DNA from: Candidatus Omnitrophota bacterium
GTDB taxonomy: Bacteria; Omnitrophota; Omnitrophia; Omnitrophales; Aquincolibacteriaceae
Direction of reading: 5' to 3'
Length of the DNA stretch: 43,833 bases
Assembly (NCBI GenBank): GCA_016930235.1
Contig: JAFGHI010000030.1
Location: 1-43,833 of the forward strand
Part shown: positions 4,704-33,664 of the stretch, in pieces
Layout of the letters: each line of letters starts with the position of its first letter
Numbering within the stretch: position 1 is the first letter of the stretch
Made by a program: the position numbers and the translations under genes
Notes under the pieces: generated by a model
Seen by the model: the letters and a program-made list of their open reading frames with translations, nothing else
The model's database searches: none
What the model was told of the DNA's origin: nothing

Positions 4704-4837
4704 CCGCTCGCCCCGTAGAACGGGGCTCGCCCACCGCGGCGGTGTCCTTTTCCTCATGAGAAAAAAGGACACCGCCGCGGTGGGCGAAGCCTCGCCGGAG
4801 TCCGCAGGACGGAGGCGGGCGAAGCGGTCAAAGGAGT
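4704..4837. repeat. Compound palindromic element between leuC and leuD
   Basis: Perfect 24-bp arms 4728-4751 / 4763-4786 (cgcccaccgcggcggtgtcctttt / aaaaggacaccgccgcggtgggcg). Flanked by ccccgtagaacgggg and gcctcgccggagtccgcaggacggaggc hairpins. Outer arms are accgctcgcc and ggcgggcgaagcggt. Confidence 0.85.
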
Positions 4838-4842
4838 TTGAA

Positions 4843-5481: not shown

Positions 5482-5512
5482 ACAGGAAAAAATATTTTCC
5501 CTTGTTGATTAA

Positions 5513-5605
5513 CGTCATCCTGAGCGGAGAAAGAGATCCGAAATCTCCGCGAAGGATCCACGAACAGAGATTCGTCGGTCGTAAAAACCCCCCGTCAGGA
5601 TGACG
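5513..5605. repeat. Nested inverted-repeat element (cgtcatcctga...tcaggatgacg)
   Basis: 11-bp terminal arms 5513-5523 / 5595-5605. Internal stems gcggaga...tctccgc (5524-5530 / 5544-5550) and cgaa cagaga ttcg. Confidence 0.75.
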
Positions 5606-5775
5606 CATTGACAGGTCAAATTTCAGTTTTCGGGATTCAACAAAAATCATCTTCTAACATCTTATAACAGTCCTTAGCAACGACTGATCAGAACAAGTTT
5701 AATTCCGCATCGAAAATCAAAGATCGGCAAATCAGAAGAATCGCATTTTTACTTTCTAAAACCCTTGATAAGTCC

Positions 5776-5803
5776 TTGAAATACCATCCGGTTATGTTAT
5801 CTT
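5776..5803 (+). promoter_or_regulatory. Putative sigma70-like promoter of the giant ORF
   Basis: TTGAAA (5776-5781), 16-nt spacer, TATCTT (5798-5803), 45 nt upstream of ATG 5848. Confidence 0.4.
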
Positions 5804-5847
5804 TTACAAGTATTTCATCCACCTAAATCCAAATCGGGAAAGCGATT

Positions 5848-5955
5848 ATGCAAAAAGGCTTTAAAAAAGCGAAAGGCATATTTTCGTCGGTTACATGTCT
5901 ACTTTTTTTAATTACGAATCTATGCAACCCTTTACCCCCGAAGACAGCCTACGCT
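5848..5955 (+). other. Predicted N-terminal signal peptide of the giant ORF
   Basis: Basic start (KKAKG), hydrophobic core (SVTCLLFLITNLC), then AYA|ND as a plausible signal-peptidase site. Confidence 0.7.
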
Positions 5956-8900
5956 AACGACCAAGAAGCCTCATTCCTCACAGAACAACATCTGGGCGGT
6001 TTTGAGATACCGGCAGAGTGGGGCCGCGTGACAGAAATCATGAAGTCCGCCGAGACGGACTCTCTTATCCTTCATATCCAAACCTCTCACCGCCATTATG
6101 AAGCCCAAAAAAATATCCAGGCCATCCTTAAATATCTTTCTGAAAGATATGGGGTCCATCAACTCTTTTTGGAAGGAGGCTGGGACAAACTCGAGCCCGA
6201 GCTTCTGAGATTGACTCCTGAAGACGAAGAAACAAATCTCCGCATTACCGATGCCCTTTTGAAGGCGGGCGAAATTACCGGGGCCGAGGCCTTCCTGATC
6301 GATAACGAATCACCCGCTGATGGCTGGGGCATCGAAGATTATGAAGCCTATGCTGCCAATGGCGCTGTCTTTAAGGAAATCATACGGCAAGAACCGTTGA
6401 TTGAAAAAGGTCTCACGCAGGTTAAAGCGGCTTGGGAAAAAGAGGCCGCAAAATATTTTTCTAAACAGCTCCGGGATTTTATCCGCAGGGAAGAAGCCTT
6501 CCTGGCCAACCAAATCTCCATGAGTGATTGGTTGGATCACTTAACGCAGGAAGCCAGAACCTGTCTCCACCTGGATTTGGAAAATGTCTGGCATCAAGCA
6601 ACGTGGCCGATACTCGTACGTTACGCAAGACTTAAGAAAGTCGGAGAGTTATTCAACGAAGAAAAGATCCGGGAAGAATCGGAAGATTTTATTATAGCAT
6701 TACGGCGTCTTCAGATATCCGAGGAGATTGTCAAATCCATTCAAGAGACCTTAGGATCGGAACTGAATCAAGGAAATAGAGCTCAAGCCCGCGGAATCTT
6801 GAGATCCCGAACCCAAGACGGGGAAGAGATACCCGCTTCAGCGACACGTTTCCTCTTTGAACGGTTGTTTGATGTCCTGCCCGAAGACTTCTCAATGGAA
6901 TTATTCCCCAATCTCAAACTTTTCATTCAGCAGCTTGTCCTCATAAGCGAGCTTGAAGGCGAAAAACTGGAAGAGGAAACGCTGCGGCTCACATCCTGGA
7001 TCACCGAAGCGCTGGCTGACGGGGAAAGGGACAAGGAGCTCGTCCGGATGCTCGAGGCCATCAGGCATTTTGAGAAACTCTTTTCGCTTGAACTCACCCG
7101 CAAGGAATATCTCAACGCTTTTACGAGCCGCGGAGAGGATCCATTCAATCGTTTGTGGGAAGAAATTTTCAGCGGTCAGAAATTGAAGGCGAAAGACAAA
7201 GCATTGAAGGAAGGACTTCAAGCGCTTTACGCCAAGGCCGTCCAGTTTTATGAAGGGGCCGTCCGCCGCGAAAAATGGATGGCCGAAAATACGCTCTCTC
7301 ATCTCCGGCAGCTGGAGAATCGAAAAGCGGTTCTCATTACCGGCGGTTTTCACGCGGAGGGCCTTAAAGATGCGATCCTGAATCAAGGGGTTTCCTACGT
7401 CCAGATCACACCGCGCGTGACCGACATTCCCCAAAACACGCGGGAACTTTACCTTCAAATGGTTTTGGGCGAGTACCTGCCTTCTAATTCCAAATACGAG
7501 GCTGCCTTGAGATTACAAATGCAGGATTGGCCTGGGATGGAAAGCGATAGCTGGCCGGGCCCTTCTCAACAGAATGTCGCCCGGCATATGCTGGATATTG
7601 CAGGCCTTCAATTGAATGGCGATGCAGAGCTTGACCGGCAGTTAAAGACATCGCGTCTCGCTCAGCTGGCCGGATTACGCTCTGAACGGCGAACCGTTCG
7701 GTCTGAAGATTTGAATCCCCCGAATCGCTGGCAGGGTCATCGGTGGGATGATTGGGATGCAGATCACCTTGTCCAAACGGTCCAATCGGACACCGCCGGG
7801 AATTATGAAATTACGATTGATGAAGCCGAAGAAATTTTGCGACTTGTCCGGCAAATTCAAGGTCCTGAGCAGCCAAATCCACGCCTTGTAGTTGAAGCCT
7901 GGAAAAGCGGGCATGCCCTTACGATCGAAGAGGCAGTCGAGATGAGTCATTTCTCCAATCGGATGAATGGTACGGGTACCGTTGATTTGGATAAATGGCG
8001 GGATCAGATTGTCCAAAGAAGTAAAGACAAGAAGGGTAAAGTTAAACCGCTCAGCAGGGAAGAAGCTTTCCAAATCTTGAAGCAGATCGCGGAAATTCGT
8101 CTGATGAATGCCGATACGCGGCTTCTACCGATGCCGCTTCTGATCGATGCCTTTTTTGCTTTCGGTTCAGTGAAAAAGTTGAGGGAGATGCTCTTTGACG
8201 TGGCCTTTGACTACGTTCCGGAACCAACAGGGAAAACAGCTTCGCGCCGGGGCAGCAACCAAAAAGCTGCCGTGCAAATGAATTTGAGTGGTCTTATAGA
8301 AGCGGCCAAAGGGGAGAATCCGAAGGTGATAGATTGGGATTGGGGTTTTAAGGCCCTTGATCGGTATTATGAGCAGCATCGAATTCATGTGAGCGCGGCA
8401 AGACAGCGGAAAACAAAGTCTGAGCTGCGCTTGTCTCCAACCGAGACAAGCACTGCTCGGGACTCGATGCAACCGCCGAGTGGAACATCAAGTTCCACCG
8501 GCGTAGTACCTGCACACGAAGTACAGGTGGGGCCATCTCGCTCCGAGCCGCACCAATTTCCGACCGAAATTGGTACTGCTCAGTCCTTTGGGCCGACCGC
8601 CCAAAGGGCCGAGCTGCGGGAAGTAAGTTCCGCTTGGCTCCTGGCTGCCGCCTCGGTTTTCGTCATTGGTTTGGATATCTCCTGGCGGATACAGTTAAGG
8701 CGGAGGGTGACTCAAATTTGGGAAGGGCATGTTAAGCGGGAGCTTTCCGATCCGGATTATTTTAAAGGGCCGGGAGCCAATGAGATGTTTTTTGTCAACG
8801 AATCGCGTAAGTGGACGCGTAGACTCGTAAAGGCCATTTATTCCACGACACATGATTGGAAAGCATCTCTCGTTTCATTGGATGAATTGTTGTCGAGAAT

Positions 8901-11900
8901 CCCGCAGGTTTCGGTTTCGCTTATCCGCCGCAATCGCCGGAGCGGAAAGAATGAACATTGGTATATTACCGTTCCCGATTCGGTTGAGTTAAAGCGGTTA
9001 GCCGAAGATTCTTCAAGATTACGGTCAATCATCATTTCTCATTCCGAATTAAGGACGGAGGATGAATATTTTCGTCAATTGGTGGATGAACATCTCGAGG
9101 GGATCAGGGGTGTTTACGAGAAATTCGAAGAACGTCTTGATTCGATTGCCGGGCAACATGGCATTGACAAACTCGGATTGCGCTATGCGGTCTTGTTGGA
9201 TGTGATGAGATATAACACCCTTTTTTACGGGGATATTCTGGAAGGCCCGGGTTATTCCGGACTTTCCAGAGACGACCGTGCATTTCTTTTTGGGATCATT
9301 TTGACTATTTGGCAGATGGTTTATGATGAAATCCGGCAGTTATGGACGGAATTAAGCCGGGAATCGAATCCTTTTGAAAGATTGGCTCAGGTCCTTGACG
9401 AGACGGGGGAATTCCGCGCTGCGCTTCGGGTGAATCATCAAGAGGCGCTTAATTTAGTTATTCATGCGTTGGAAAATTCGGGTTTCGTTACCGGATCGGG
9501 AAAACAAACTGCCTCGGATTGGGTGGATTATATTATCGCCAGCGCCGCGAGATTTGAGGAAGGCCGCGTTGGGGATATGAATCAAACCCGGGAAAACATT
9601 CTTCTTCTTAAGGCCTTATTTGATGCCAAATTTCATTATTATCACCAGTTAAACAGGTATCGGGATAAAAGCATATCGAGGACAGGGGGCCGGGTTTCGA
9701 TAAGTGCGTTTGTGGAAGCGCTTCTGCGGCATGACGGGGAATTTCTGCGTGCAATAGATCGGGACGATCAGCCGCCCCGCTCCGAGCTGCGTACCTTAGG
9801 CTGGGAATGGGGATTGGCATTGGGTGCGGTTGTTTTGGGGGGTGTGTTTTATGCTTTGAATGTTTATTTGAAACGCGCTGAGTTTTTTGAACGAGTTGAA
9901 CAGATCTGGGTGGAATCCATCCGGGGAGTTTTGAAAGAATCTCATCATCCGGTCGAGCCGGGGCATGAGGATCAAATTCAGGATGATTCATGGGTCGACC
10001 GGCACGAATCCCGAAGGTTGTTGATGGAGCTTGCCGGGGTTTTAAGGAAGAAATTCCGCAATGATCCGAAGGCCATCGAAATCTTAAACAGGATTGCGCG
10101 GCAGATTTCAGATTACACAGAACCCATTGTGATGCGGGAAGGTGACAGGACGCCTCTTTACCATTTTAATCTTCCCGATCCCCGTCAACTGAAAATCATG
10201 CTCGAACAGCCGGCCAGACTCAATGAATGGATCCTGAACGCGAAAAGTAATTTTGCGCCCGACGAAATCGAGGCAACCCGATTCCAAAGGTCTGAGTTGC
10301 GCACAGGCGACATCGTTTTCCACGCTGAACCAAGTCCCTTATTGCCCGCTATCGAAAAATTTTATGGACAATTTCAGCAGACCATCGGGTGGATGCTCGA
10401 AGGACAGCTTTCGGGTGTTAAGGAACACCGGCTTGTTCGGGACATGTTAACCGACATGGCGCAATTTCATCAGAGCGAACGCAAGTGGCTTCGAGGCGGA
10501 GATTTCAAAAAACTCACATCCGAAGAAGAGGCCTTTCTCTTTTTCTCTTACCTGCTCCCTCTTTGGCGGATAATCCATCAAGAGTTGGAGCAAGTTTTCC
10601 TGGAATATGAGAAGGGTAAGCAGCCTGTCAGCGGGTTTTATGCGTATTTGACCCAAACACCGCGGGAGATCAGCGGGCGCATTTGGCAGCGGCATCGGGA
10701 ACCGTTTGGGAGGGCGGTGCAGTTAATCGGACAACATGCCGCAATCCGGTGGGCGGATGATCGGCGCCTCGGGGCTGATTTTATTGACCGTGTGATTGAC
10801 CGGCTCGTTCAATCTACGGCCGGGGTAGTTCAAAGTTTGGAACAAGAAAACAACCGATACGCCGCTATGGCGATTTTGAACTATCTTTTTAGGAGCAGGC
10901 AATTATTTTACAAGGAGTTTTCCGATTATGTCGCCGATTATGCGAAAAAGAACCTTCGGTCCCTTAGGCCCCGGCATGTAAATGAAAATCGTAATTTATT
11001 TTATCAAGCGCTCGAACAATACGAAGATACGCTCCTGCGATCAGAATTGCGGAAAGGCGTGCGCTCCAAGACGACGGTTCAAGGGGAACTGCGCGAGGTT
11101 GAAACGGCAATCAACGGAATTTCCCGCGCCTTGAGTGATCCGGAAGATGGACTTGATGAGGAAATTGCAAATCGGACTTTGACAGAACTCAACACACAAA
11201 AGGATCGTTTACTTGAAGAATTGCGGGATTTGGAATCCCGTTCCGAGCTCCGTCACGATCCGGTTTTGGAATGGCCGATGACCGATCCTAATCGAGATTT
11301 TAATCAAATGCTTACGGATTTTACTTTTTACGCTGCCAGGCAATATCACGATGGAAGCGCAAGATTAATGACGAGTCCTTCGATGATGGGTATCCAATAC
11401 AAGCGCGAGCAATCCTACGACAGCGTTTTAATTCGGCATAATCCGCAGGAGAATGAACTCGTTGTTGTCGGCAAAACGAGTCGCATTGATGAGCCCGATG
11501 CGGTTTTGAAATATGTACAAATCGTTTTTTCTGATGAGGATCTTCGTGTTTATCAGGGCCAGGCGGGTGAAGAGCATGGGGAAGTTGCTTCGGGTTCTTC
11601 AGAAGAGACCAGGATCATTGCGGAGCCTTTAAATGGTATTCGCTATCAAAGCGGTCGATTTGAACTGGTCGTAAGTCCACAGGCTTTTAGCTTCCTTAAA
11701 GCTCAAGAAGTGATGATAACCGGATTGACTTATGTGGAAAAGACGTCCGAAACGGAAATTCGCCCGCGCTCGGAACTTCATGAATCCATCTCGCCGGTAT
11801 TGGGATGGGGCGGAACCGTAAGTATCCTTTTAGGCGCCGGATTGTTTCTCGTGACGCTGGGAGGTTTGGCGGCAGTCTTCTTATTCCGGCGATGGAAGGC

Positions 11901-14900
11901 CAACGGACGGTATGACAATTATCCGGGTGTCAAATCCCATGTGCTGGCAGCCGTGAAAGCGGATCTTCGGGTTGATTTTTCTTCAGGGAAAAGGGAGATG
12001 ACCGAAGAGAAAATGGGCGGAGACGTTATTGACATTGATTATGATGACGAATTTTCAATCGACTGGGCCGCGTTACCGACGCCTCTTCTTCAAGATCTAT
12101 ATCGGCAGCTTGCTGAACAAAGGCGCCCTAAGATTGAGTTTGTATCGGGCGGGCCGCACGTGATTGTCAACCATGTTGAGCATCGCTTCTCGATGAATCG
12201 TGGCAAGAGGCTGCCGTCCCGCGTGATAGCGAAAAAGACTTTCGAGATCCGTTCTCCCCGTTCCGAGCTAAGGGCGGGATCTGTTTCACCCCGCGACTTT
12301 TTCGGTGAGGCGTTCGGTGATTGGGATAATCTTGTGCAAAGGATTCAAAGAAGTGAAATCACGTATGCTGCGATTAAACCCCTCGGACACTTCCCCGAAG
12401 AGGTGCAACTTGCGATCCGTTATCAAATTATCAGGACTTTTGTCCAGGCAGGATTTCTTGTCCATATTGGGAGACCGATTCGATTGACTCGCGAAGAAGC
12501 GGAAAAATTTTATACGGTTCATCAAGGAAAGCCTTTTTTTGATGCATTGGTTGATTATGTCTCAAGCGATGTCTATGTCCCGCTTCTTTTGGAGAAAAAG
12601 GATGGTCCTGAAATTATTGATCATGCCCGCGAAACGATTGTCGAAATCCGAAGAAAGGCACAGGCCTCTGAGTTAGTTCGAGGTGCTGAACTTATTCCAC
12701 AAGGTGTCGAGACGAGGGTTTACACGCAAAATCTTATTCACGGCAGCGATTCACCTGAGAATGCGATTTATGAGGTGGGTGTGATTTTGTCCACAGAAGG
12801 TGCGCGTTCGGAAATGCGGGGAATGACGGACCACGTGCAACGGACCACGGACCGTGAAAATTTACTCCTCACCCCAACCCTCTCCCCAGCGGGGAGAAGG
12901 CAGGGTGAGGGGGCGATCCACCTGGGTCATGGGTCTTGGGACCTGGGTCTTGAACGATCTGAGTCAAGAACGCCTTCCAGTGCACATTGGAGCTTGGCGG
13001 ATCCAGAATTTCCCCGTGGTGGTGTCATCCTGACCGATAACTATATCCGCTCCGATATGAAAACCTATTCCTTGCCGCATCACAGGAAGATTGCGGTTCT
13101 GGAAAGACAGGAAGGAGATCATCTGCCTTATGCAGGAAAATTTGTGACGGCGATCCAGCAAGCCGAGTTGGTAAACGAAGTTAATATCATCAGCCTTCAG
13201 ACATCCGGGAGTGTGCGGCAGACACTCGAAAACCTGCTGAGCGGATTCGAGCCTGATCTCGTTCTGGTACCGGTCTCCTCCGGCTGGCCGGAAAATGAAG
13301 TCGCTTCCTGGATTCATGATTATGTCCAGGTGCGCGGGAGCCCGCTTGAGGTGCTTCTTTATCCTGTTCCTCTTGAAAAGAATGATCAGTTTTTTTATAC
13401 GCCCATTTTAGAATATGACTTCGAAAAGATTATCCTGCCCGCAGTCAAAGTCCATCATACACAAAATCGAAGAACTCAATATGTGCCGGCCGTACGGCAT
13501 CTCCTGCGATTTTTGGCGGCCCGCGCCAATGCGGAACGCCGAGATGGGCCGTTGAGTACTCCCGTTGCCAATGCCTTTGCGGTGGAACTTATCCGTAAAG
13601 GGGAGGTCCAACGTGTCTTGTCTAATCGTAACCAAATGGCAGAACTGGACAAACTTGTTCCGCTTATTGTGATTTCGCCTCATCCGGATGATGATGTGAT
13701 CGCGGCCGGGGGATTGATCCGCAATATTTTAGCGACGACCGGCGTTGAGAACTGGGTTTTAGGAAGAGGGTATACCGGGGTAACGGGCGTCGGGGATTTG
13801 ACACCCGAAGAAATAGCCTGGGGGATGAGAGAACTGCAACAGATTTTCAAACCCGGCGGTGATTTCTACGACAAAACCGGTTTCGTTCCGGATCTTTACG
13901 GGCGAGTCTTAAAAGAAACGCCTGAGAGTCCAAGTCAGGAAGTGCGGTCGATTGTCGAGTACCAAGTGGATCTCCTGGGCCATTTGCCTGCTGTCCAGGT
14001 AAAAATTAACCAATGGGAACTAGGGGACAACGTCCAACCTGTTTTTGGGGAATTGGTTAAGCGGATTATTCGAAGGAAAGAGGTTGAAGAGGCTTCGCGG
14101 ATTTTATCGCGGGATTTGGAACGCCATGTATCGGTGAGATGGTTTGATCTTCATTCAGTGGCTTTTCCGCATGGTCTGGCTCCCCGGGTGCCCGATTGGA
14201 TGGTTCAGCAGGATGAAGTTGTTATTCTCGAAGAGTTCCAGCATTTTTTCAACGAACATCGTCAGCAAATTATGGCGTCCCAGACCCACGGGGTTCCCTG
14301 GAGTATTGTCGTTCCCCATCCCGAAGACCAGCATCCCCATCACAAGACGACGTCTCAAATCGTGATGACGGTGTTACAGGATTTATCCAGGCGCGAGGGG
14401 ATTGAGATTCAATTGATTGAATACCAGTCGCCCTGGGCCGGCGGGTTTGACACCTATTTTGTGACAGATACCGAGATCCCATCCGAAGCTGTTTCTCCTG
14501 ATTCCGGATTAGATCGTTCCGAAGAACTGTCGGCGATGGAGCAGTATCAACGGGCCTTAACCTTTCTTGTCGGAGAATTGGCGGGTCGGTCTTTTGGTTT
14601 GAGTTCACCGACGCCCGAACAATTAGGCGGCCGTTTTACGGAGAGTTTTAAACGACTGGTTTTTGAGCCGGTCCGCTCGGAGCTTCGTAATGATTTTCAA
14701 AAAAGAGCGGGTGATCTCCTTAACGCTTTGGAAGGATTTGACACAGCGGTTCAAACGGCTTTTAAGGCTGTCGCTAAAGATGTGCAGAAAATTGATGAAG
14801 AAGGTAGTCGCTTTCAAGTGACGCTGGGCGGTTTTCTTGGGTCTCTTGAGCGCGTCAAAGATTTGCTGCGGGCCGAAGATCTAGACCGGAAGGTGTTCCT

Positions 14901-20900: not shown

Positions 20901-23900
20901 AGATCAGGGGAATGATCTTGTAGTTGATCATGTCTCGTTAGTCAACTATGCCGATGATTTGGTTCGTAAACAAGCGGAAGCGGTTTTGGTCCACAGTGCG
21001 ACCGGCGGGTTTGGTGCTCGGGGAATGACACCTGCCTTGGCTCAATCGATTATCGAAAGCGAAACCCGGGCCATGAAGGAAGTTGGATTAACCGTTTATG
21101 CCAATGTTACACCCACGCGTTCTCGAGGGTACGAAGAAGATTATGAGAAAAATAAAGGTGAAGCCATTCAGGAAATGCTGCAGAATGCCGGGATTGCTGA
21201 AAATGCAGGCGCTGATGCGCTTGTTTTGGCGCCTCTTACCTTCTTAAGGTCCAGCGAAGAGATCACGGAAGTTGTCAATCTTTTGGTTGAAGCCACAGAT
21301 CTTCCTGTTGTTTTCTACGATAATCCGGGTCTTCACTTGATCCCGGGTCGGGATATCGACGCAGCTGTTGTCGAAAGTTTGTGGCGGTCCGGTCAAATCG
21401 CGGCGATTAAGGTTAGTACAGACCAATTTGAGATTGTGGAGGGGTATCTCCGGACAGGCATTCGTGTTTATATCGGGAATGAAGGTCTGATTGCCCGTGC
21501 CATGGAAAAGGGCGCCATTGGTTCTGTGGGTTCGACTGGAAATATTCTTTCCCTTCTGCAGGATTTACCCGTCACGAGAAATCTCGATAATCTTCAGTAT
21601 TTGCAACGTATCGTGGATGACCTTCGGGGACCGTTGACGGTGGATCAAACAAAGATTACGGCAGCTATCCTTTATGTTTTAGCGAAAGAAGGAATTGTTC
21701 AGAATGTCCTTCTTCCGGGCGTCCCAACGCTTGAAGATACGGAAAAACAAGCTATTGACGAAGCCCTTGTCAAAGTCAATCGATTGGAGGCTGGAAAGAA
21801 CGCAGGTATTGCTCAAGCGGCGCTTGAAAAAAAGGTTGTCGACCGTTTCATAGAAGATCCATTAGGTTATGTGAAATGGTTAAGAGATGAGGCTGATGAT
21901 GCGACTTTGACTCTTGCGATCAATCACATTGAAGGGGTGCTGACAGTTGAAGGGAATCGCAGGATTTTGGAAAAGCGGGGTGTTTTAGAGGAGATCGAAA
22001 CGGTCCTCGATGAAATTTTTGCCGCCCATGAATGGCCGGAGGAGGCTTTTCAAGTCGGGGAAGGGGTTGTAGACGCTGCTCAAGCGGATTTGCAAAGAGC
22101 CCGGCAGATATTGGTCGAACAAGTTGTTCGAAAGTTGTCTGACGACCGCCATGCCGAAATGCTGAACCGGTTTTATGAGGAAGGTGTTTGGAGGTCTCTT
22201 TTGGCAAATGTCGCTGAAGCGATGGCGGCGGTTCCCCGTCATCTGTATGCCTCTCGCTTTAACGGAGCTAATGCGTACGAAAATGACATCGTCTATATCG
22301 GACGCAGACAGACGATTTCCCAGCCGTCGTTAATAGCGATGATCCTTTTGTTCCTTCATTTGAAGGGTGATGAAAAGGTTCTAGAGGTCGGCGGCGGATC
22401 GGGATGGCTGGCATCTCTTTTGGGGCAGTTGACGGAAGAGGTTTATTCGACGGAAATTATTGAGCTGCTTCGCAAGCGCGCCGAGCGGACGGTTCAAAAA
22501 ATGGGAATTCAAAATGTCCATATACTTCAAGCCCGGCCGGACGTGCTCGGTTATCCGGATGCAGGACCTTATGATGTGATTGTCGTTTCAGCGGGGAGTT
22601 CTCGCGCGACGGTCCCTGACGAGCTTGCCAATCAGCTCGCTGAGGGCGGGAAATTGCTGATTCCGTTATTGGATGAAGATGCACAGGCCTTGAGGGAACG
22701 CGAGAATGCAAAAAGACTTTATTCGCTTAAAGTTTTTGTCAAAAGAAATGGTGTGTTGGTGGATATTTTTGATATGAAAGCAATGGGGTATCCTGTTTCC
22801 TTTGTGCCGCTTATCTTGCCCGAGCGCGCAGAGTTACGCGCGATCAACATCAAGTCAGAGACTTCGAAATCTGCCAATCAGTTAGTGATTGAAGTTGGTG
22901 GCAAGAAAAAAAGTGGGCGTCATATGAGAACAGTTCCTCGCTCATTTACTTTCCCGGTTTGGAGGGATGCCGCTCAACTTGTGAATGAAATTGAGGCGAT
23001 TGCTGCCACGGGAAACCGGCATTATACGGGCGTTATTATTAATTCCGAGCGTGGGCATCTTGTAACGCAATTATCGGAAGAGGCAACAACCCTTGGTACT
23101 AAAGGCTGGCATAAGGACGGCATTTTTAGTGATCTTGAGAGCGGAGATCTTGTGATTCAGTTATCCGATGGGGCATCGATCCTTGTTTCGGGTATGGATA
23201 ACTATGCTATGGAGATTCCACCCGCCGGTATGACGCGGGAAATAAAAATGAGACGAAGGGTCAAGTTGAATGGATTGGTCCCCAGCATTCTGTCGGTCAG
23301 TGCCGAGGGTGTGGTTCAAGGGAACCTGCTTGTTGAGCGCTCTTCGTCCGAAATCATTCGTGAAATCGAAGGCCTGATAGGCGAGCAGTTTTGGACGGGT
23401 GAGCGGTTTTTTGTATCGGCGGAGGTTTCGCCTCAAGAAGATGTTTTAGAATTGGTTTTGAATGACGGCCAGAAGGTGGTGGTAACGGAAGATGGTAAGC
23501 GTGTCACGATCGAAGAAGGCGGGCGTATTGCCGACCCGTTTTTGCTTCGGTCCGTCGTCCGGCTTGTCGAAGAGTGGGAAGATTACGGACAGGTTCAGAT
23601 CAATGCCAGTGTCTTGGCGGCGGAGATGGGGATCAGTTCGGATCTTACGGTGACGGACCGGGATGTTGTTCGTGCGATTCATCTTTATAATCAAAGTGGT
23701 TCCGAATACGTTTTGGTTGATTTACCCACCGAAATAGGAAGTACCTTCCAAATCTTACCGCGTTCGGAATATGAAAAGGTGGTTCCTCCCGAAGACCGCT
23801 CAGAACTGCGGTCAGTAACGGACCACGCAGAACGAACCATGGACCACGGGAATTTATCCCTCACCCCGACCCTCTCCCCGGCGGGGAGAGCCCGCCTGCC

Positions 23901-26900
23901 AGCAGTCGGGCAGGGTGAGGGGGCGAGTGACGTGGTTCGTGGTCCTTGGTCCGTGGTCCAAGCTCGCTCCGAGCTTCGCAGGAGTGGGCATCACTATGAG
24001 ACTATTCAAGGCAATATCTGGGTGAATCGGGAAATGAGTGAATTTCCGGATAAGCCCGAATTGAGTGAATTTGTGATTAGTAACGGACCTGAAATTAACT
24101 ATGCCAATGTTGACGCAAATTTCCGCGTTCGTGTTCTATATTGGGATTATCAACGCGCAATTGTTCAAGTGAAAGTCCCGGGAGGCGAGTGGTCCGAGGA
24201 GATCCAATTGTATATGCAGACGGGCCGGCATGCGATTTCAGGGACAATTCTCATGGAACTTCGCGGCTTCGGGAAATTCGAGAGGCCCGAATTCGGCTTT
24301 TATGTGCCCGGGGAGTCAAGGGTTTTGAGGCGGAGAGAATTTGACCGCGGAGTTCAGCGGCGCTCTGAGCTGCGTGATGATTTTGTGCCGTATGTAAATG
24401 AGGGACAATATACGCCTAACCTTAAAGGGTGGTTAAAATTAGGGGTGGATGGAAAAGAGGGTGGACTTTACGAATTTAGCGAGTTCGTCATATCGGTGGA
24501 GGGTGAGCTCGCTGATTTCGATGATCTTGACCGGAATATCCGGATCCAAGTAACTGATTTTTCAAAGGCGGAAAAATGGGTGGAGTTCCTATGGAAATAT
24601 CCGGGCCGGGGTTGGTCGCAGCCCGTAAAAATACGGATGGAATCGGATGAATTTCATATCACGCGGAATGCGATCATAAGATTTAGCAGTTTTGATCGGG
24701 AAGGTTTTCCGGGTTTTGCTTTTCGTGATATCAAGCGAAAACATGAAATCTTAAGGCGCCGGGCCTATGAGGAGATTAAAACAGGATTAGTTGTCAGCTA
24801 TCCCGGCGAAGAGATTGATCTCAAACATCCGGAAAATAATTTGCATTTAGAGATTGCGGATGCAGATGCAGACCAAGGAAGAGCTATGATCAAGTACCAC
24901 TCCCGAGGAGCGAACAGATGGACACGACCCCGAGATCTCAAGACAGATGCGATTATCAAAATCGACGGTTTGATTTCTGTGACCTATCGCGGTTTGGATA
25001 AAGAGGGAAAACCCCAATTTGAGTTTGAGCCCGACAATGTCAAAGTGATGCCCGGTCTGGAATACCGCCAGATCAGACAATCCGCCTACCGGCGCTCGCC
25101 ATCAAAAAGTGAGCTACGGATCGAGATCCCTGAAATCGTGGAAGTCATCAAAGACCTAATTAAAGAAACAGATGGAGAAAGGCAGATTCGTATTACGAAT
25201 GGGATTGTGGCGAACAGGCTTAATATCTCAGAGTCGGCGGTTACCACTTTGATGTTAGAAAAGGCCATCGGGCAATTCAATGAGTCAGATGGCACGCATT
25301 TTCTGGAGCCGATTCGCACGGAGATTGGGCATACGTATCTCGTCGAAACCCGTTCTGAATTGCGGGGCGAGTGGTTTAATTTGTCCGTTGATCTTCGAAA
25401 TGGCCGGGCTCTTGAAAATTATAGTGAATTGGTCATTTCCACAACAGGGAGAGTTGATGTGACGGATGTCGATCGGAATATCCGCGTTGAGGTGGTTGAA
25501 AGCGATTGGCAGCGGGAATGGGTGACCATTCGCGTCAAATTACCGGGCGGTGAATGGTCTGAAGCGATTACTTTATTTCGAGGCGATACTTATCCGTTAA
25601 CGAAGAGTGTGGATATTCAGCTTTTTACCTTTAACGGAAGTCGCGAACCTCGCCTGGGAGTTACGAGATTACCTCATGTTGGAGTCCTTCGCCGGCGGCT
25701 TTTTAACCGTGATCATAGAAGATGGCTTGAGCAGCAACCGGCGGTAAGAATAAGAGCCGAATTGCGCTTGTCTCCAACCGAGACAAACACTGCTCGGGCC
25801 TCGGCGCAATCGCCGGGTGGAACATCAAGTTCCACCGGCGTAGTACCTGCACACGAAGTGCAGGTAACGATGCCTCGCTCCGAGCTGCGGAGCAGAAACT
25901 GGGTTAATCTTCCCCTTGATGTTGAAAAAGGAAACCCCGAAATGGGCGAATTTGTGCTGAGTATGCCGGTGCTGGATATGCCCGGCAGCACGATGGATTA
26001 TTCCCGCGTTGACAATAATATTAGGTTACAGATCACGGCCTTTTCGATGAAAGGAGCCTGGATTGAATTCAGGTATAAACTGCCCGGGCGTCATGCAAAA
26101 TGGTCAAAGAACTATCGATTGCAGATGGGAGATGGACTTTATCCGATCACCGAAAGTGTTGAGTTTGAGTTGGGCTCGTTTACGGAGGAGGGTATCCCGG
26201 TCATTGGTTTTTTTGCTCCTCGCAGCGTTCGAATTTTCACAAGGCAAAATTATGACACATCCAATCGGCAGAAAACCGTCTGGTTTACTTTACGGGCGGA
26301 TACATGGGCCGGTAATCTTACGGAGGATCTAAGCGGATTTGTCATCAATAAAGAAGGAGAGGTTGACCAAACCGATATCAATAATAATGTCCGGGTCCAG
26401 GTCATTGACAAGGATGTTAAAAAGCAAACGGTCACGATTACGGTTGCTTATCCGGGAGAACAGAAAATCCGGACGGTTTTGCTTCGAAGGCACGAAGAAT
26501 ATCCGGTTTTCCTAAACTTTTCTATCCGGTTCCATTACTTTGACGATGACGGCACGCCTTATTTCGATTTTACTAAAGACACGGGTTATAAAGTTCTTCG
26601 CAGAAGCGTTTATGGAAGGGGTCCTGTTGTGCAGCATTCTGAATTGCGGGAAAAACGTGTCGCACTTCAGGGGGCACAGGGAATGCCTGAATTAGTCGAA
26701 TCATTTTTGCCGGAAGATGCGCAGAATGCGGTGTATGGTTACCGTGAAATTGGACGGGTAGGGGAGACAGGTATTTTTGCCTTTGCTGTCAAGGTGATGG
26801 ATGGCATCCTGCCTTTATCGTTACACGGGCTGGCGGCTGCCGGTCCGTTCTTTACAGAACTTCTAAGTTTGAATGGGTTGGCCATGGCGGCTCCGGGCCA

Positions 26901-27399
26901 GGAATCGCCGGTGGTTCATACCCAGGCAGCACAGCAGGCGCTTGGTTTTGAAAAGAGGATGGTGGATGCGATCGTGCTTGGTCCCGATGCAGCTTTTCAA
27001 CTGGCCATGCTTCCTGCTGTGCGTGCTGTTTATGCGGGAGTCCCTCTCTTTGTTGTCGGTGCGGATACCCGGCAGAAGGAACTCCTGGGGCAGTTTAATC
27101 TGGATCTCAGGCAATCCGCTCAGGCTGAAGTCCGGTTGATTGATGATGTCTCGCAAATCCGGGCAGAGCTTCTTAAGAAAATTGGGGACCGTAACATGCA
27201 GGCCTCATCGCTTCATTTGACAGCTCTCCTGACGGCCCGGGATTCCATGATGCTGGCCGAATCGCTTAAGGATCAAATCCCCAATACCATCTTTGTGACG
27301 GAGCGGATGGCCGAACATTTCCGCGCACAGGCCGGTGCTTATGTCGAAAGCCTGGTGGCCGAATTCCAGGCTCGCTATCGAGTCACTACATCAGCCTAA
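5848..27399 (+). CDS. Giant exported multi-domain protein, 7183 aa, divided by recurrent RSELR motifs
   Basis: Single uninterrupted 21.55-kb frame. Signal-peptide-like start 'MQKGFKKAKGIFSSVTCLLFLITNLCNPLPPKTAYA', ChaN/TIKI-like N-domain, several enzyme-like domains and tandem repeat families (separate entries). Confidence 0.93.
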   Translation: MQKGFKKAKGIFSSVTCLLFLITNLCNPLPPKTAYANDQEASFLTEQHLGGFEIPAEWGRVTEIMKSAETDSLILHIQTSHRHYEAQKNIQAILKYLSERYGVHQLFLEGGWDKLEPELLRLTPEDEETNLRITDALLKAGEITGAEAFLIDNESPADGWGIEDYEAYAANGAVFKEIIRQEPLIEKGLTQVKAAWEKEAAKYFSKQLRDFIRREEAFLANQISMSDWLDHLTQEARTCLHLDLENVWHQATWPILVRYARLKKVGELFNEEKIREESEDFIIALRRLQISEEIVKSIQETLGSELNQGNRAQARGILRSRTQDGEEIPASATRFLFERLFDVLPEDFSMELFPNLKLFIQQLVLISELEGEKLEEETLRLTSWITEALADGERDKELVRMLEAIRHFEKLFSLELTRKEYLNAFTSRGEDPFNRLWEEIFSGQKLKAKDKALKEGLQALYAKAVQFYEGAVRREKWMAENTLSHLRQLENRKAVLITGGFHAEGLKDAILNQGVSYVQITPRVTDIPQNTRELYLQMVLGEYLPSNSKYEAALRLQMQDWPGMESDSWPGPSQQNVARHMLDIAGLQLNGDAELDRQLKTSRLAQLAGLRSERRTVRSEDLNPPNRWQGHRWDDWDADHLVQTVQSDTAGNYEITIDEAEEILRLVRQIQGPEQPNPRLVVEAWKSGHALTIEEAVEMSHFSNRMNGTGTVDLDKWRDQIVQRSKDKKGKVKPLSREEAFQILKQIAEIRLMNADTRLLPMPLLIDAFFAFGSVKKLREMLFDVAFDYVPEPTGKTASRRGSNQKAAVQMNLSGLIEAAKGENPKVIDWDWGFKALDRYYEQHRIHVSAARQRKTKSELRLSPTETSTARDSMQPPSGTSSSTGVVPAHEVQVGPSRSEPHQFPTEIGTAQSFGPTAQRAELREVSSAWLLAAASVFVIGLDISWRIQLRRRVTQIWEGHVKRELSDPDYFKGPGANEMFFVNESRKWTRRLVKAIYSTTHDWKASLVSLDELLSRIPQVSVSLIRRNRRSGKNEHWYITVPDSVELKRLAEDSSRLRSIIISHSELRTEDEYFRQLVDEHLEGIRGVYEKFEERLDSIAGQHGIDKLGLRYAVLLDVMRYNTLFYGDILEGPGYSGLSRDDRAFLFGIILTIWQMVYDEIRQLWTELSRESNPFERLAQVLDETGEFRAALRVNHQEALNLVIHALENSGFVTGSGKQTASDWVDYIIASAARFEEGRVGDMNQTRENILLLKALFDAKFHYYHQLNRYRDKSISRTGGRVSISAFVEALLRHDGEFLRAIDRDDQPPRSELRTLGWEWGLALGAVVLGGVFYALNVYLKRAEFFERVEQIWVESIRGVLKESHHPVEPGHEDQIQDDSWVDRHESRRLLMELAGVLRKKFRNDPKAIEILNRIARQISDYTEPIVMREGDRTPLYHFNLPDPRQLKIMLEQPARLNEWILNAKSNFAPDEIEATRFQRSELRTGDIVFHAEPSPLLPAIEKFYGQFQQTIGWMLEGQLSGVKEHRLVRDMLTDMAQFHQSERKWLRGGDFKKLTSEEEAFLFFSYLLPLWRIIHQELEQVFLEYEKGKQPVSGFYAYLTQTPREISGRIWQRHREPFGRAVQLIGQHAAIRWADDRRLGADFIDRVIDRLVQSTAGVVQSLEQENNRYAAMAILNYLFRSRQLFYKEFSDYVADYAKKNLRSLRPRHVNENRNLFYQALEQYEDTLLRSELRKGVRSKTTVQGELREVETAINGISRALSDPEDGLDEEIANRTLTELNTQKDRLLEELRDLESRSELRHDPVLEWPMTDPNRDFNQMLTDFTFYAARQYHDGSARLMTSPSMMGIQYKREQSYDSVLIRHNPQENELVVVGKTSRIDEPDAVLKYVQIVFSDEDLRVYQGQAGEEHGEVASGSSEETRIIAEPLNGIRYQSGRFELVVSPQAFSFLKAQEVMITGLTYVEKTSETEIRPRSELHESISPVLGWGGTVSILLGAGLFLVTLGGLAAVFLFRRWKANGRYDNYPGVKSHVLAAVKADLRVDFSSGKREMTEEKMGGDVIDIDYDDEFSIDWAALPTPLLQDLYRQLAEQRRPKIEFVSGGPHVIVNHVEHRFSMNRGKRLPSRVIAKKTFEIRSPRSELRAGSVSPRDFFGEAFGDWDNLVQRIQRSEITYAAIKPLGHFPEEVQLAIRYQIIRTFVQAGFLVHIGRPIRLTREEAEKFYTVHQGKPFFDALVDYVSSDVYVPLLLEKKDGPEIIDHARETIVEIRRKAQASELVRGAELIPQGVETRVYTQNLIHGSDSPENAIYEVGVILSTEGARSEMRGMTDHVQRTTDRENLLLTPTLSPAGRRQGEGAIHLGHGSWDLGLERSESRTPSSAHWSLADPEFPRGGVILTDNYIRSDMKTYSLPHHRKIAVLERQEGDHLPYAGKFVTAIQQAELVNEVNIISLQTSGSVRQTLENLLSGFEPDLVLVPVSSGWPENEVASWIHDYVQVRGSPLEVLLYPVPLEKNDQFFYTPILEYDFEKIILPAVKVHHTQNRRTQYVPAVRHLLRFLAARANAERRDGPLSTPVANAFAVELIRKGEVQRVLSNRNQMAELDKLVPLIVISPHPDDDVIAAGGLIRNILATTGVENWVLGRGYTGVTGVGDLTPEEIAWGMRELQQIFKPGGDFYDKTGFVPDLYGRVLKETPESPSQEVRSIVEYQVDLLGHLPAVQVKINQWELGDNVQPVFGELVKRIIRRKEVEEASRILSRDLERHVSVRWFDLHSVAFPHGLAPRVPDWMVQQDEVVILEEFQHFFNEHRQQIMASQTHGVPWSIVVPHPEDQHPHHKTTSQIVMTVLQDLSRREGIEIQLIEYQSPWAGGFDTYFVTDTEIPSEAVSPDSGLDRSEELSAMEQYQRALTFLVGELAGRSFGLSSPTPEQLGGRFTESFKRLVFEPVRSELRNDFQKRAGDLLNALEGFDTAVQTAFKAVAKDVQKIDEEGSRFQVTLGGFLGSLERVKDLLRAEDLDRKVFLDAHAALEKIQSGMKELIGGYNPKRASLGEVRTAGNQLDGIIKELAAFLGVTKKPAAKTVQPKTEPPTEKVEGTVTPRESHRPSIEVKKHQGVDGFGAVSAPPAEFFELASGLKQSVLSEMLLDPEINAIGKVKGPAAELEKVKGSIIWVELGSEPETVAKLVINGLRSGKEDKLPVKYGFLIVSYRAAPGSPEAKMIVLVPETVPAESPRSERRVKVEELNRHLREHKALDGIVVALHHSYRVRAKWVNAPAGSNVKGYYVFLSQPADWDEGLEERSAPVQMYLATEGEMQQYEWEIQHLMDESWTAQERKGVYLPSDYFLSRKKKKKVDLALKSEDVFKKAAKAMALFTSHHQIVMDIRAAVFSELGDFQYGAEIKPSQQSDFGPPASQAPQNMIKLLQYVKDHQYEILVGVQDIDRSMGRIRLVLGGSDEKIGSVEEDVKTDLPGLSFQKAKVIKEYPSGGRQVQLGRKVVILRDFHQLNALYQILVKRFRPEWWKGDYLVSVAEIERALDQMQGARGKGQGRSELRDDNQYVARGNGTIRLVPSEGNKAEIHIVQNDVRQFTFEMMSGSAQTVVDSILSGIGSQAIEAVWIGSSGHLMVSVGDFNRFVVDPVLGTVEFKRNYVSAASGVIDLKVERRHLDHLAVTVNGGQFFTHTVKSAVITLTAIESVKGESGYDAVWQDANGNLIILLTNGYRVRVDATTDEVSAMPATGLDELQPLKEMGPSQTGTSEWEGEGEQFLVTSRQGEITIETTDSIFTVAVNLNGKSEFGWAFAKPAAQVVDEINDVRAQFGSPIGYKAVWGDKRNRDLVIELDDGRMIRVKDQSGEIWVRRADAGEGTIVLESTGNYGVTVLLDGNYRAELEYQHGARRSAESLREHQGTSRIASVWSNLDTGVHIFYLDDGRMLTADNQTSEVTVTGVKTAGEARPADSVLSKLPPGAEKVVDNENGFIVLEVSRYGNILVYAGNRDRAYEIPTAKDTGHAYREVHRLQRGADISSIWKNPETWDHFIVLSDGRVIQMNYATHEVTFMSADTAPGNLPGATKIADSNDGEIMLSAASTALGLLVNDAVKETFFIVNPLIVAQTFNSLRRGSSIKSVWGTSEELFFNLDDKRVIVIVRENGNIYVEGEEPVSSSSTAVKEHPNADKVADWGNGVIALRRNILDEIMVYEGDRRVSIVHIPSSSSEQVWNQIRRLRASTEIVAVWREQTSLDCLIDLSDGRTIRIEDETGRIGVEGGDATTPAPAALVPPASSFIPQEAVLVVDSTEGGIALEVTLDGDIDIYIGGQVDRDRRIDNTTLSKAKEIIEKLGDHTITAIWLKKSESNYYLDKAYYFVLDNGQTVVFNGRTGEVSIEGVGAAPAGADVTAKEHPGSSRVADQKNGEITIRWDTDDQLEVLEGRSLAHTIFLHDFVADRVLSQIQGLQGSSRVVAVWEEISTLDTLIDLSDGRTLRINEINSRVTVEGEPVVASAARAGSSQLAAASADEMLEMEQEAIDAKSKAEPVAFQVTVDEIRERGVDVVLRGEDRSEVKGFIFADQLDQDLSRYWWGNTISPVYLVSYKYRKPEHQRKSALFTMRYDRALRERQSGTRQRMTRPEALEYVQDAFQNGTTVEAVVLGASSKGTGINFMIGGVLRAFMRDRYARPRSGEVKELHVVKVDVQSGDDVYVELGETDHQLRRGRSDYRRYMPEVDQETAMSELEDALQRGTTVSIRAGRPNERRTGLNGTYRGAVHVFYRDAQAAAEWSRQTPEQDIDGLYVVQKVEKGPDSFYILQRNRPSASGPRSQRSMGRSGSGGLFTSSGPAGLSPYRRKGGRTPKKSKRPGRGGLDGGRRRSELRIWKNGALGEDQLEIYSTRAHWEGAEKMAVPREIILHSGRGEFVLLNLKAAGRAEDQPSHNVLTYSMVAANSLPSLWEEGLQVGNFKVEIDQEGRPVSQGIRIEIFSDVQDQYAYLGESLSQWINAATNGGEFPFTLQNSRFVTFLTTNVLPTINPLEQPDQGNDLVVDHVSLVNYADDLVRKQAEAVLVHSATGGFGARGMTPALAQSIIESETRAMKEVGLTVYANVTPTRSRGYEEDYEKNKGEAIQEMLQNAGIAENAGADALVLAPLTFLRSSEEITEVVNLLVEATDLPVVFYDNPGLHLIPGRDIDAAVVESLWRSGQIAAIKVSTDQFEIVEGYLRTGIRVYIGNEGLIARAMEKGAIGSVGSTGNILSLLQDLPVTRNLDNLQYLQRIVDDLRGPLTVDQTKITAAILYVLAKEGIVQNVLLPGVPTLEDTEKQAIDEALVKVNRLEAGKNAGIAQAALEKKVVDRFIEDPLGYVKWLRDEADDATLTLAINHIEGVLTVEGNRRILEKRGVLEEIETVLDEIFAAHEWPEEAFQVGEGVVDAAQADLQRARQILVEQVVRKLSDDRHAEMLNRFYEEGVWRSLLANVAEAMAAVPRHLYASRFNGANAYENDIVYIGRRQTISQPSLIAMILLFLHLKGDEKVLEVGGGSGWLASLLGQLTEEVYSTEIIELLRKRAERTVQKMGIQNVHILQARPDVLGYPDAGPYDVIVVSAGSSRATVPDELANQLAEGGKLLIPLLDEDAQALRERENAKRLYSLKVFVKRNGVLVDIFDMKAMGYPVSFVPLILPERAELRAINIKSETSKSANQLVIEVGGKKKSGRHMRTVPRSFTFPVWRDAAQLVNEIEAIAATGNRHYTGVIINSERGHLVTQLSEEATTLGTKGWHKDGIFSDLESGDLVIQLSDGASILVSGMDNYAMEIPPAGMTREIKMRRRVKLNGLVPSILSVSAEGVVQGNLLVERSSSEIIREIEGLIGEQFWTGERFFVSAEVSPQEDVLELVLNDGQKVVVTEDGKRVTIEEGGRIADPFLLRSVVRLVEEWEDYGQVQINASVLAAEMGISSDLTVTDRDVVRAIHLYNQSGSEYVLVDLPTEIGSTFQILPRSEYEKVVPPEDRSELRSVTDHAERTMDHGNLSLTPTLSPAGRARLPAVGQGEGASDVVRGPWSVVQARSELRRSGHHYETIQGNIWVNREMSEFPDKPELSEFVISNGPEINYANVDANFRVRVLYWDYQRAIVQVKVPGGEWSEEIQLYMQTGRHAISGTILMELRGFGKFERPEFGFYVPGESRVLRRREFDRGVQRRSELRDDFVPYVNEGQYTPNLKGWLKLGVDGKEGGLYEFSEFVISVEGELADFDDLDRNIRIQVTDFSKAEKWVEFLWKYPGRGWSQPVKIRMESDEFHITRNAIIRFSSFDREGFPGFAFRDIKRKHEILRRRAYEEIKTGLVVSYPGEEIDLKHPENNLHLEIADADADQGRAMIKYHSRGANRWTRPRDLKTDAIIKIDGLISVTYRGLDKEGKPQFEFEPDNVKVMPGLEYRQIRQSAYRRSPSKSELRIEIPEIVEVIKDLIKETDGERQIRITNGIVANRLNISESAVTTLMLEKAIGQFNESDGTHFLEPIRTEIGHTYLVETRSELRGEWFNLSVDLRNGRALENYSELVISTTGRVDVTDVDRNIRVEVVESDWQREWVTIRVKLPGGEWSEAITLFRGDTYPLTKSVDIQLFTFNGSREPRLGVTRLPHVGVLRRRLFNRDHRRWLEQQPAVRIRAELRLSPTETNTARASAQSPGGTSSSTGVVPAHEVQVTMPRSELRSRNWVNLPLDVEKGNPEMGEFVLSMPVLDMPGSTMDYSRVDNNIRLQITAFSMKGAWIEFRYKLPGRHAKWSKNYRLQMGDGLYPITESVEFELGSFTEEGIPVIGFFAPRSVRIFTRQNYDTSNRQKTVWFTLRADTWAGNLTEDLSGFVINKEGEVDQTDINNNVRVQVIDKDVKKQTVTITVAYPGEQKIRTVLLRRHEEYPVFLNFSIRFHYFDDDGTPYFDFTKDTGYKVLRRSVYGRGPVVQHSELREKRVALQGAQGMPELVESFLPEDAQNAVYGYREIGRVGETGIFAFAVKVMDGILPLSLHGLAAAGPFFTELLSLNGLAMAAPGQESPVVHTQAAQQALGFEKRMVDAIVLGPDAAFQLAMLPAVRAVYAGVPLFVVGADTRQKELLGQFNLDLRQSAQAEVRLIDDVSQIRAELLKKIGDRNMQASSLHLTALLTARDSMMLAESLKDQIPNTIFVTERMAEHFRAQAGAYVESLVAEFQARYRVTTSA
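5970..7500 (+). other. ChaN/TIKI-like (erythromycin-esterase/TraB-like) N-terminal domain
   Basis: 'LILHIQTSHRHYEAQKNIQAILKYLSERYGVHQLFLEGGWDKL...GVEDYEAY'-like pattern (here 'GWGIEDYEAYAAN') and 'AVLITGGFHAEGLKDAI'. Confidence 0.5.
8427..8528 (+). repeat. 102-bp dispersed in-frame repeat, copy 1
   Basis: About 93% identical by eye (7 differences) to 25764-25865, in the same reading frame. Contains 5-nt-loop hairpins. Confidence 0.9.
8430..8607. repeat. Array of short hairpins with 5-nt loops
   Basis: cttgtctc-CAACC-gagacaag (8430-8450); gtggaac-ATCAA-gttccac (8480-8498); accaatttc-CGACC-gaaattggt (8552-8574); cctttgggc-CGACC-gcccaaagg (8585-8607). Confidence 0.85.
8605..11052 (+). other. 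Duplicated TM plus helical cassette (A1 about 8605-9777, A2 about 9778-11052), each with an internal SELR motif
   Basis: 'WLLAAASVFVIGLDISWRIQLRRRVTQIWEGHVKREL' matches 'LALGAVVLGGVFYALNVYLKRAEFFERVEQIWVESIRGVL'. 'DDRAFLFGIILTIWQMVYDEIRQLW' matches 'EEEAFLFFSYLLPLWRIIHQELEQVF'. Confidence 0.65.
12274..12804 (+). other. Nucleoside-diphosphate-kinase-like domain inside the giant ORF
   Basis: 'YAAIKPLGHF...FVQAGFLVHIGRPIRLTREEAEKFYTVHQGKPFFDALVDYVSSDVYVPLLLEKKDG...NLIHGSDSPENAIYEVGVIL'. The NDK active-site signature N-x-x-H-G-S-D-S is present. Confidence 0.8.
12833..12966. repeat. REP-like nested palindrome in frame (copy 1)
   Basis: cctcaccccaaccctctccccagcggggagaaggcagggtgagg core, flanked by ggaccac / gggtc-type repeats. 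Translated as 'LLLTPTLSPAGRRQGEGAIH'. Confidence 0.8.
13650..14480 (+). other. PIG-L/LmbE-type deacetylase-like domain
   Basis: 'LVPLIVISPHPDDDVIAAGGLIRNIL' (HPDDD at 13681-13695) and 'VPHPEDQHPHHKTTSQIV' metal-ligand-like motif. Confidence 0.8.
16447..16472 (+). repeat. GGGGCAA heptamer run, in frame, abutting RSELR
   Basis: gcaaggggcaaggggcaaggggcaagg immediately before cgctccgagcttcgc. Confidence 0.85.
16489..19310 (+). repeat. About nine tandem protein repeats of about 95 aa
   Basis: Pattern 'VAD..NG.I.L..........V..G.........[20-25 aa]..LR....I.AVW......I.LSDGR.IRI...TG.V.VEG' recurs, e.g. around 17740, 18040, 18345, 18690 and 19030. Confidence 0.7.
19370..20409 (+). other. Possible OB/S1-like repeats followed by a Gly/Arg-rich basic tail
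   Basis: Beta-type repeats 'VTVDEIRERGVDVVLRGEDRSEVKGFIFADQL', 'VVKVDVQSGDDVYVELGE', then 'SMGRSGSGGLFTSSGPAGLSPYRRKGGRTPKKSKRPGRGGLDGGRR'. Confidence 0.35.
20960..21800 (+). other. DapA/N-acetylneuraminate-lyase-like TIM-barrel domain
   Basis: 'AVLVHSATGGFGARGMTPALAQSII...GADALVLAPLTFLRSSEEI...LPVVFYDNPGLHLIPGRD...IAAIKVSTDQFEIVEGYLRTGIRVYIGNEGLIARAMEKGAIGSVGSTGNIL'. Schiff-base Lys context (IKVS) and Tyr (FYDNP) are retained. Confidence 0.72.
22150..22824 (+). other. Protein-L-isoaspartate O-methyltransferase-like domain
   Basis: 'VPRHLYASRFNGANAYENDIVYIGRRQTISQPSLIAMILLFLHLKGDEKVLEVGGGSGWLASLLGQL...PYDVIVVSAGSSRATVPDELANQLAEGGKLLIPL'. Confidence 0.85.
23816..23964. repeat. REP-like nested palindrome in frame (copy 2)
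   Basis: ccctcaccccgaccctctccccggcggggagag...cagggtgaggg core inside ggaccacg...cgtggtcc outer arms. Translated as 'LSLTPTLSPAGRARLPAVGQGEGAS'. Confidence 0.85.
23998..26634 (+). repeat. Six copies of a beta-rich module of about 110-125 aa
   Basis: Shared core 'SEFVIS..G...D..D.D.NIRVQV......W......PGGEWSE.I.L......I..S..I....F...G.P.FGF.....VLRRR.Y.R'. Copies at about 23998, 24376, 24771, 25366, 25891 and 26263. Confidence 0.8.
25764..25865 (+). repeat. 102-bp dispersed in-frame repeat, copy 2
   Basis: Near-identical to 8427-8528, same frame. Encodes 'LRLSPTETNTARASAQSPGGTSSSTGVVPAHEVQV'. Confidence 0.9.
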
Positions 27400-27430
27400 C
27401 CGCTTCGCACACCGCGTAGGTGGCCTTTTC
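27399..27430 (+). repeat. Truncated (left arm only) palindromic element
   Basis: accgcttcgcacaccgcgtaggtggccttttc matches the 32-bp left arm with one mismatch. Loop-like cctaacattggatg follows, but there is no right arm. Confidence 0.8.
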
Positions 27431-27659
27431 AGATATTCCTAACATTGGATGCGGGCCCCTTTTCTATGTCTTCTTGAGGACCGTTCGGACCACAAAGGAT
27501 AAAGGCCGGTTGAGGGTGCTATAGACTTCAGTCATCAGGTTCTTTTTTTCCTTCAACCTTCGATACTTGGCCTTCCAACCGTTTTTGGGTTTATAGTCTG
27601 TTGTCTTCAGTCCTTAGTCTCCTTATCGCTTATTGCTTAACATGTTATAATGCATTTCT

Positions 27660-28460: not shown

Positions 28461-28501
28461 GAATGATGGAAAAGGCCACCTACGCGGTGGGCGCTAGCGG
28501 T
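28411..28501. repeat. Long palindromic element overlapping the 3' end of the epimerase-like gene
   Basis: Left arm 28411-28442 accgcttcgcccaccgcgtaggtggccttttc; right arm 28469-28493 gaaaaggccacctacgcggtgggcg. Confidence 0.92.
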
Positions 28502-28529
28502 GGTTGTGTAAGCGAGCGAAGGAGACAGG

Positions 28530-33487: not shown

Positions 33488-33577
33488 ACCGCTTCGCCCA
33501 CCGCGTAGGTGGCCTTTTCGTACAAACCTAACGTTAGGAATGATTGAAAAGGCCACCTACGCGGTGGGCGAAGCGGT
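33488..33577. repeat. Long palindromic element, best-preserved copy
   Basis: Perfect 32-bp arms 33488-33519 / 33546-33577. The loop contains the palindrome cctaacgttagg. Confidence 0.95.
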
Positions 33578-33664
33578 TGCGATGGGTGTGGCGGTCACTT
33601 ATAATGAACCTGCTCACCTCGATGGTGATCTCTTCGAATATTTCTAGCCGTAGCGACTTACCGG

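Follow-up and report, generated by a model that had tools for sequence, protein, structure and literature searches.

Giant open reading frames (ORFs) are common in Omnitrophota and have already been published for this phylum, where they were described as poorly conserved, of uncertain function and probably serving in adhesion or predation (Seymour et al. 2023, PMC10066038). The 39,678-aa giant of 'Ca. Velamenicoccus archaeovorus' is cited there from Kizina et al. 2022, and a survey of huge proteins mentions Omnitrophota giants as well (PMC11573180). PMC10066038 describes no common N-terminal module, joint motif or C-terminal rule and offers no polyprotein reading, the word "polyprotein" occurring in it 0 times. 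In the full-text literature, searched without bioRxiv and most subscription journals, there was no report of an RSELR joint motif or of a bacterial or Omnitrophota polyprotein, and we found no published account of giants organized as described below. Viral and eukaryotic polyproteins are similar in that one chain carries many unrelated functional modules with short conserved sites between them; here, instead, the genes are cellular and bacterial, number many per genome, have a signal-peptide-like start and use a joint code that is swapped between lineages, and their processing is a proposal. NRPS/PKS megasynthases, RTX proteins and large adhesins are comparable in size, but none of their domains was matched in the giants in Pfam and NCBIfam searches, in agreement with an earlier sequence-only reading that had set the protein apart from all of these.

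The window, by which we mean the whole 43,833-nt stretch of Omnitrophota DNA analyzed here, contains an open frame of 7,183 codons (5848..27399; this ORF and all features within it are on the + strand). It shares with the published giants the phylum, the size class (at 21.55 kb, it exceeds the >20 kb criterion for Omnitrophota giant ORFs), a signal-peptide-like start and a paucity of annotated domains. The 7,183-aa ORF is real, as the sequence-only reading had claimed: approximately 228 stops are expected from its own codon-position composition and none is present, the remaining 5 frames across the same interval contain 198–466 stops each, and codon-position GC is coding-like in each 2.4-kb block over the full length. 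The claimed signal peptide fits a basic start, a hydrophobic stretch and a ..TAYA-N sequence with predicted AYA/N cleavage (aa 1–36, 5848..5955, judged by eye), and the same layout is repeated, again by eye, in other giants having a complete start. The last module (aa 6935–7183, 26650..27396) follows an HSELR joint and ends in ..RVTTSA. Outside the frame, an intergenic palindromic repeat family (CGCCCACCGCGTAGGTGGCCTTTTC ... inverted copy) occurs at 1–86, 4727–4790, 27399–27446, 28411–28503 and 33488–33580, the third of these copies lying directly after the stop codon of the giant ORF. A 266-aa ORF just downstream (27660–28460), beginning MYRLLVVGDSYEAHTITRYF, has no Pfam match; the aconitase at 3306–5481 consists of 2 overlapping ORFs, one for the catalytic domain and one for the C-terminal swivel domain. 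A search of Rfam gave no match.

The claim of at least 5 unrelated enzyme-like domains was borne out by a ChaN/Tiki-like domain at the N-terminus (E 0.009, below the Pfam cut-off) and by Pfam matches to NDK (5.5e-19), PIG-L (1.2e-10), DHDPS (1.4e-11) and PCMT (1.3e-37). NCBIfam concurs on NDK, DapA and PCMT, its sole addition being a weak match of glucosamine-6-phosphate deaminase type near the PIG-L region. Active-site motifs are retained in alignments to solved structures: the NDK module (aa 2172–2315, 12361..12792), the only NDK match found in its genome, keeps the catalytic His in IHGSDS; the DHDPS/DapA-like module (aa 5106–5300, 21163..21747) holds the position of the Schiff-base Lys, its AIKVS aligning with AIKDA of 3hij; and the PCMT methyltransferase module (aa 5435–5619, 22150..22704) carries the SAM motif VLEVGGGSGW. 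The best Pfam stretch of the PIG-L deacetylase-like module spans aa 2740–2842 (14065..14373), with an HPDD sequence upstream noted by eye. The 3 repeat families previously pointed out are all present, namely the RSELR pentapeptide, a beta-rich array of ~90-aa repeats recognized by eye (~aa 3548–4530, 16489..19437; no confident Pfam match), and related ~130-aa modules forming 4 segments with RSELR-type joints between them (aa 6045–6929, 23980..26634; sequence comparison). A translated intergenic repeat (..LTPTLSPAGR..QGEGA..) lies in frame between 2 RSELR joints at 23812..23964. Two repeat pairs within the ORF are likewise in frame between joints, one 88% identical (8426–8551 and 25763–25888; protein LSPTETxTARxSxQ..) and the other 71% identical (12899–12963 and 23909–23973; protein LTPTLSPAGR..QGEG); cassettes related to these in-ORF repeats also occur in the giants of contigs C16 and C48.

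What had been presented as a single oddity turned out otherwise: judged by sequence comparison, the ORF is one member of a genome-wide and clade-wide class of modular giants. Its own genome, a draft assembly (as are the others) of 63 contigs and ~90% completeness, encodes at least 15 giants (21 ORFs or fragments) totaling 97,334 aa or ~292 kb, which is ~12.7% of 2,307,202 bases. The longest reach 12,255 and 11,896 aa; G014, a relative from the same family, has a chain of 14,273 aa, and open frames of 10,000–15,709 aa are found elsewhere in the order. The common plan runs from a signal-peptide-like start and the N-terminal module through a series of unrelated modules to a final module and an -(A/S)A end, with related modules recurring at different positions and in different orders in different giants. 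One chain, the C7 giant, combines GDE_C, GH77, phosphorylase, starch synthase, PPDK and glutamate dehydrogenase-like domains, and other giants of the genome carry PFK, phosphoglucomutase, phosphotransacetylase, alanine dehydrogenase, IMPase, HAD and methyltransferase domains. Overall, the divergent modules include NDK, DapA, PCMT, PIG-L, glycogen enzymes, PPDK, PFK, PTA and AlaDH. Many genomes of the other families of the order have a standalone NDK; the NDK matches of family f1 lie within giant frames (G000, G006, G012, G016 and G018), with a short-frame exception in G091. The idea that giant-borne NDK replaces the cytosolic enzyme is weak, because NDK matches are entirely lacking in many f1 genomes. 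The 11,896-aa giant of C60 (G000, 16404–52091) includes an outer-membrane efflux (OEP) domain and at one place runs for ~7,189 aa from one joint motif to the next; part of it resembles a 2,241-aa ORF of C12 devoid of RSELR-type joints. In the giant of C63 (G000), a frame change within a repeat cassette divides the chain in two (4529–10837 and 10717–25572), through either a natural frameshift or an assembly error.

Homologous N-terminal modules open 11 giants of the genome; there is one per chain, always as the first module where the context was examined. In the window giant, the module covers aa 50–560 (5995..7527; profiles, alignment and model). When 23 of these modules, drawn from several genera, are aligned, H81, A86, Q87, E109, G110, G145, G161, Y468 and R474 are invariant, as are G499-G500-F501-H502 and P522. 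All Pfam matches of the N-terminal modules are sub-threshold: ChaN, with a best E of about 0.008–0.009, and erythromycin esterase are among the 3 most frequent weak matches, and DUF5694 is also matched weakly. A search of the AlphaFold2 model (pLDDT 84) against the PDB with Foldseek returned nothing at E ≤ 0.001, its weak matches including ChaN 2g5g (E 3.9) and 2rad, which we take to be an EreA-like entry. With moderate confidence, we therefore call the module Tiki/ChaN/EreA-like (PF04187, PF05139), on the basis of the weak ChaN, Erythro_esteras and DUF5694 profile matches and the invariant His/Glu/Arg/His; unlike members of those families, it has no significant match, includes a large helical region within its ~500 aa, and stands first in a giant. 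The module was detected in 146 of 292 sampled Omnitrophota genomes, and all 73 loci matched in a GTDB scan, for which the A2 subfamily alignment of the domain was used, are titled Omnitrophota or Omnitrophica.

The opposite end of the chain is similarly constant. Among the 58 closed giants that could be fetched, counted with no filter for common ancestry, the last residue is Ala in 52 and the last two are AA or SA in 47, compared with AA/SA ends in 2.3% of control ORFs; the 6 giants with a different last residue include the frame-broken C63 ORF and one with N-masked sequence. The final module of the C16 type, a subfamily other than that of the window giant, is predicted to be an alpha/beta domain (pLDDT 82.5) and, in a fold search of the PDB, matches generic Rossmann-like folds only, with low TM-scores. 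In L007/L069 and 18 other C16-type final modules, the domain has a terminal helix that runs to -(A/S)A, and it also has a well conserved GLLxxALLY-like stretch.

The joints between modules are marked by a pentapeptide, of which the window giant contains 13 exact RSELR copies and ~13 variants. The first is RSERR at aa 611–615 (7678..7692). Exact RSELR copies start at aa 1311 (9778..9792), 1731 (11038..11052), 2138 (12259..12273, before the NDK module), 2943 (14674..14688), 3543 (16474..16488) and 4855 (20410..20424), and variants include RSEMR at aa 2320 (12805..12819), directly after the NDK module, and RAELR at aa 5660 (22825..22839). Genome-wide, the degenerate pattern has 138 matches, which form in-phase clusters on many contigs, and the reversed pattern has 9; the 21 ORFs or fragments counted above come from the regions marked by these matches. 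In the giants of this genome, RSELR occurs 140 times versus 0.30 expected. One-mismatch variants in the same giants show almost no change of Glu, R or H at the last position, S or A at the second, and no constraint at the fourth. In 9 of these giants, none of 144 motifs falls inside a Pfam-matched domain (14.2 expected), and joints can bracket domains tightly, as for a 144-aa NDK match in a 177-aa segment, 395 aa of alanine dehydrogenase in 472, and 288 aa of a PEP-utilizing domain in 378. The flanks of the joints are disorder-prone and less hydrophobic. Independent internal starts, raised earlier as an outcome that would speak against a single long product, gain no support, as Met is not enriched after the joints (47 seen versus 51.2 expected).

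The earlier description of one pentapeptide was right as to the existence of the joints and too narrow as to the motif, which is R-[SA]-E-x-R in 4 families of the order and A-x-SLG in 2 others. Other genera of the same family as the window use RSEVR, RSEMR, RAEMR or RSEIR; families f3 and f8 mainly RAEVR and RSEAR; and family f6 RSELR. Across R-[SA]-E-x-R genomes, the fourth residue (L, V, M, A or T) differs by genus. In families f7 and f4, R-[SA]-E-x-R is missing and A-x-SLG is present instead, with counts of 24 versus 0.57 expected in G037, 11 versus 0.5 in G032 and 7 versus 0.2 in G036, a case that comes from one f7 genome and mainly 2 f4 genomes. The 24 sites of G037 have 23 distinct DNA spellings. 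Giants of f7 and f4, at loci that were selected by the N-terminal module, keep that module and the -AA ends. A-x-SLG shows no excess in genomes with RSExR joints (2 versus 3.2 expected in the genome of the window and 3 versus 4.0 in G014). [AG]-x-SLG-like tags follow the N-terminal module also in more distant genomes (L169–L174), and joints of the SLG type may therefore be ancestral. A joint code that is conserved as protein and swapped between lineages would imply a cognate reader, and in our view no other observation speaks as strongly for the tag being read as the motif swap does.

The window giant carries several unrelated modules in one chain, and the conserved short sites lie between modules, none of them inside a Pfam-matched domain in the 9 giants compared. 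Of the earlier suggestion of an exported, multi-enzyme ORF of possible polyprotein type, the phylum, the export-type start, the multi-enzyme content and the pentapeptide joints have held up, whereas we only infer cleavage. The polyprotein idea is strengthened by the placement of joints at domain boundaries, by the lineage-specific motif swaps and by the constant N- and C-terminal modules, and the best single account, which we put slightly above an even chance, is that the giants are exported polyproteins from which modules would be released by proteolysis at the joints. The chain would be exported by Sec, and a cognate factor would recognize the joint tag; most likely, this factor would be an endoprotease, site-specific and cutting after Arg (or at SLG), that yields separate enzymes outside the cytoplasm; the modules would be active as enzymes, and the -(A/S)A tail could act as a sorting or quality-control signal. 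Speculatively, the N-terminal module is a candidate for the processing hydrolase, because it occurs once per chain and has invariant His, Glu, Arg and His residues. The broader proposition, to which we give even chances, is that much of the secreted proteome is made as giant polyproteins, with a dedicated protease reading the joint code and whole families having switched code and protease together; this would be a combinatorial system of cellular polyproteins with no described counterpart in bacteria. A clostripain-type C11 protease is absent from the 45 genomes searched; a search for gingipain C25 gave no signal in any control and carries no weight either way. Speaking against processing are the export of metabolic enzymes (NDK, PFK, PPDK), which has no obvious purpose, and the very long joint-free stretch in C60 (~7,189 aa).

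That stretch, together with other long joint-free stretches and the OEP-like domain of C60, is more at home in the next best explanation, a rather unlikely one in our estimate, in which the giants work uncut at the surface or in the periplasm, as scaffolded enzymes or as coat, adhesion or predation proteins, with the tag serving for docking, cross-linking or anchoring. The published adhesion or predation reading of Omnitrophota giants (PMC10066038) and the signal-peptide-like starts agree with it as well, but the folds are mostly those of soluble metabolic enzymes, with no adhesin domains among the Pfam matches, and a tag that marks almost all domain boundaries and is absent from the domains themselves fits separation at least as well as docking.

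At the DNA level, the 139 joint sites have 102 spellings and no conserved flanking DNA. Codons 1 and 2 (Arg and Ser) in the giants of this genome strongly favor CGC/CGT and TCC/TCG (CGY TCS), CGCTCCGAGCTGCGG being the commonest spelling; codon usage for Glu and Leu is much nearer the background. The codon bias suggests some spread by DNA copying. This bias, the shuffling of modules and the in-frame translated intergenic repeats in linkers would all be expected if the tag were a by-product of module shuffling, a signature of recombination or insertion with little protein function. We consider this doubtful, given the diversity of spellings and flanks, the near-invariant Glu, R/H ends and free fourth residue, and the change of the fourth residue by genus and of the motif by family, which DNA-level copying does not predict. 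A DNA-level mobile element as the main origin of the joints was rejected on the same spellings and unconserved flanks, with the bias in codons 1 and 2 remaining, and a palindromic origin was rejected for want of covariation. Finally, fusion of genes by assembly errors or pseudogene decay, to which the 63-contig, ~90% complete assembly and the split C63 giant might point, is highly improbable, since many Omnitrophota genomes that were assembled independently show this architecture, open frames of 10,000–15,709 aa exist elsewhere and active-site motifs are retained.

With the N-terminal module, joint code and C-terminal rule as a shared architecture, the giants can be recognized, dissected module by module and put to the test. 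Even without cleavage at the joints, the code would call for a reader. If the joints are cut, the giants would represent a large-scale polyprotein strategy in cellular bacteria, accounting for about one-eighth of this genome, and the motif switching would be a natural experiment that should lead to the processing protease.
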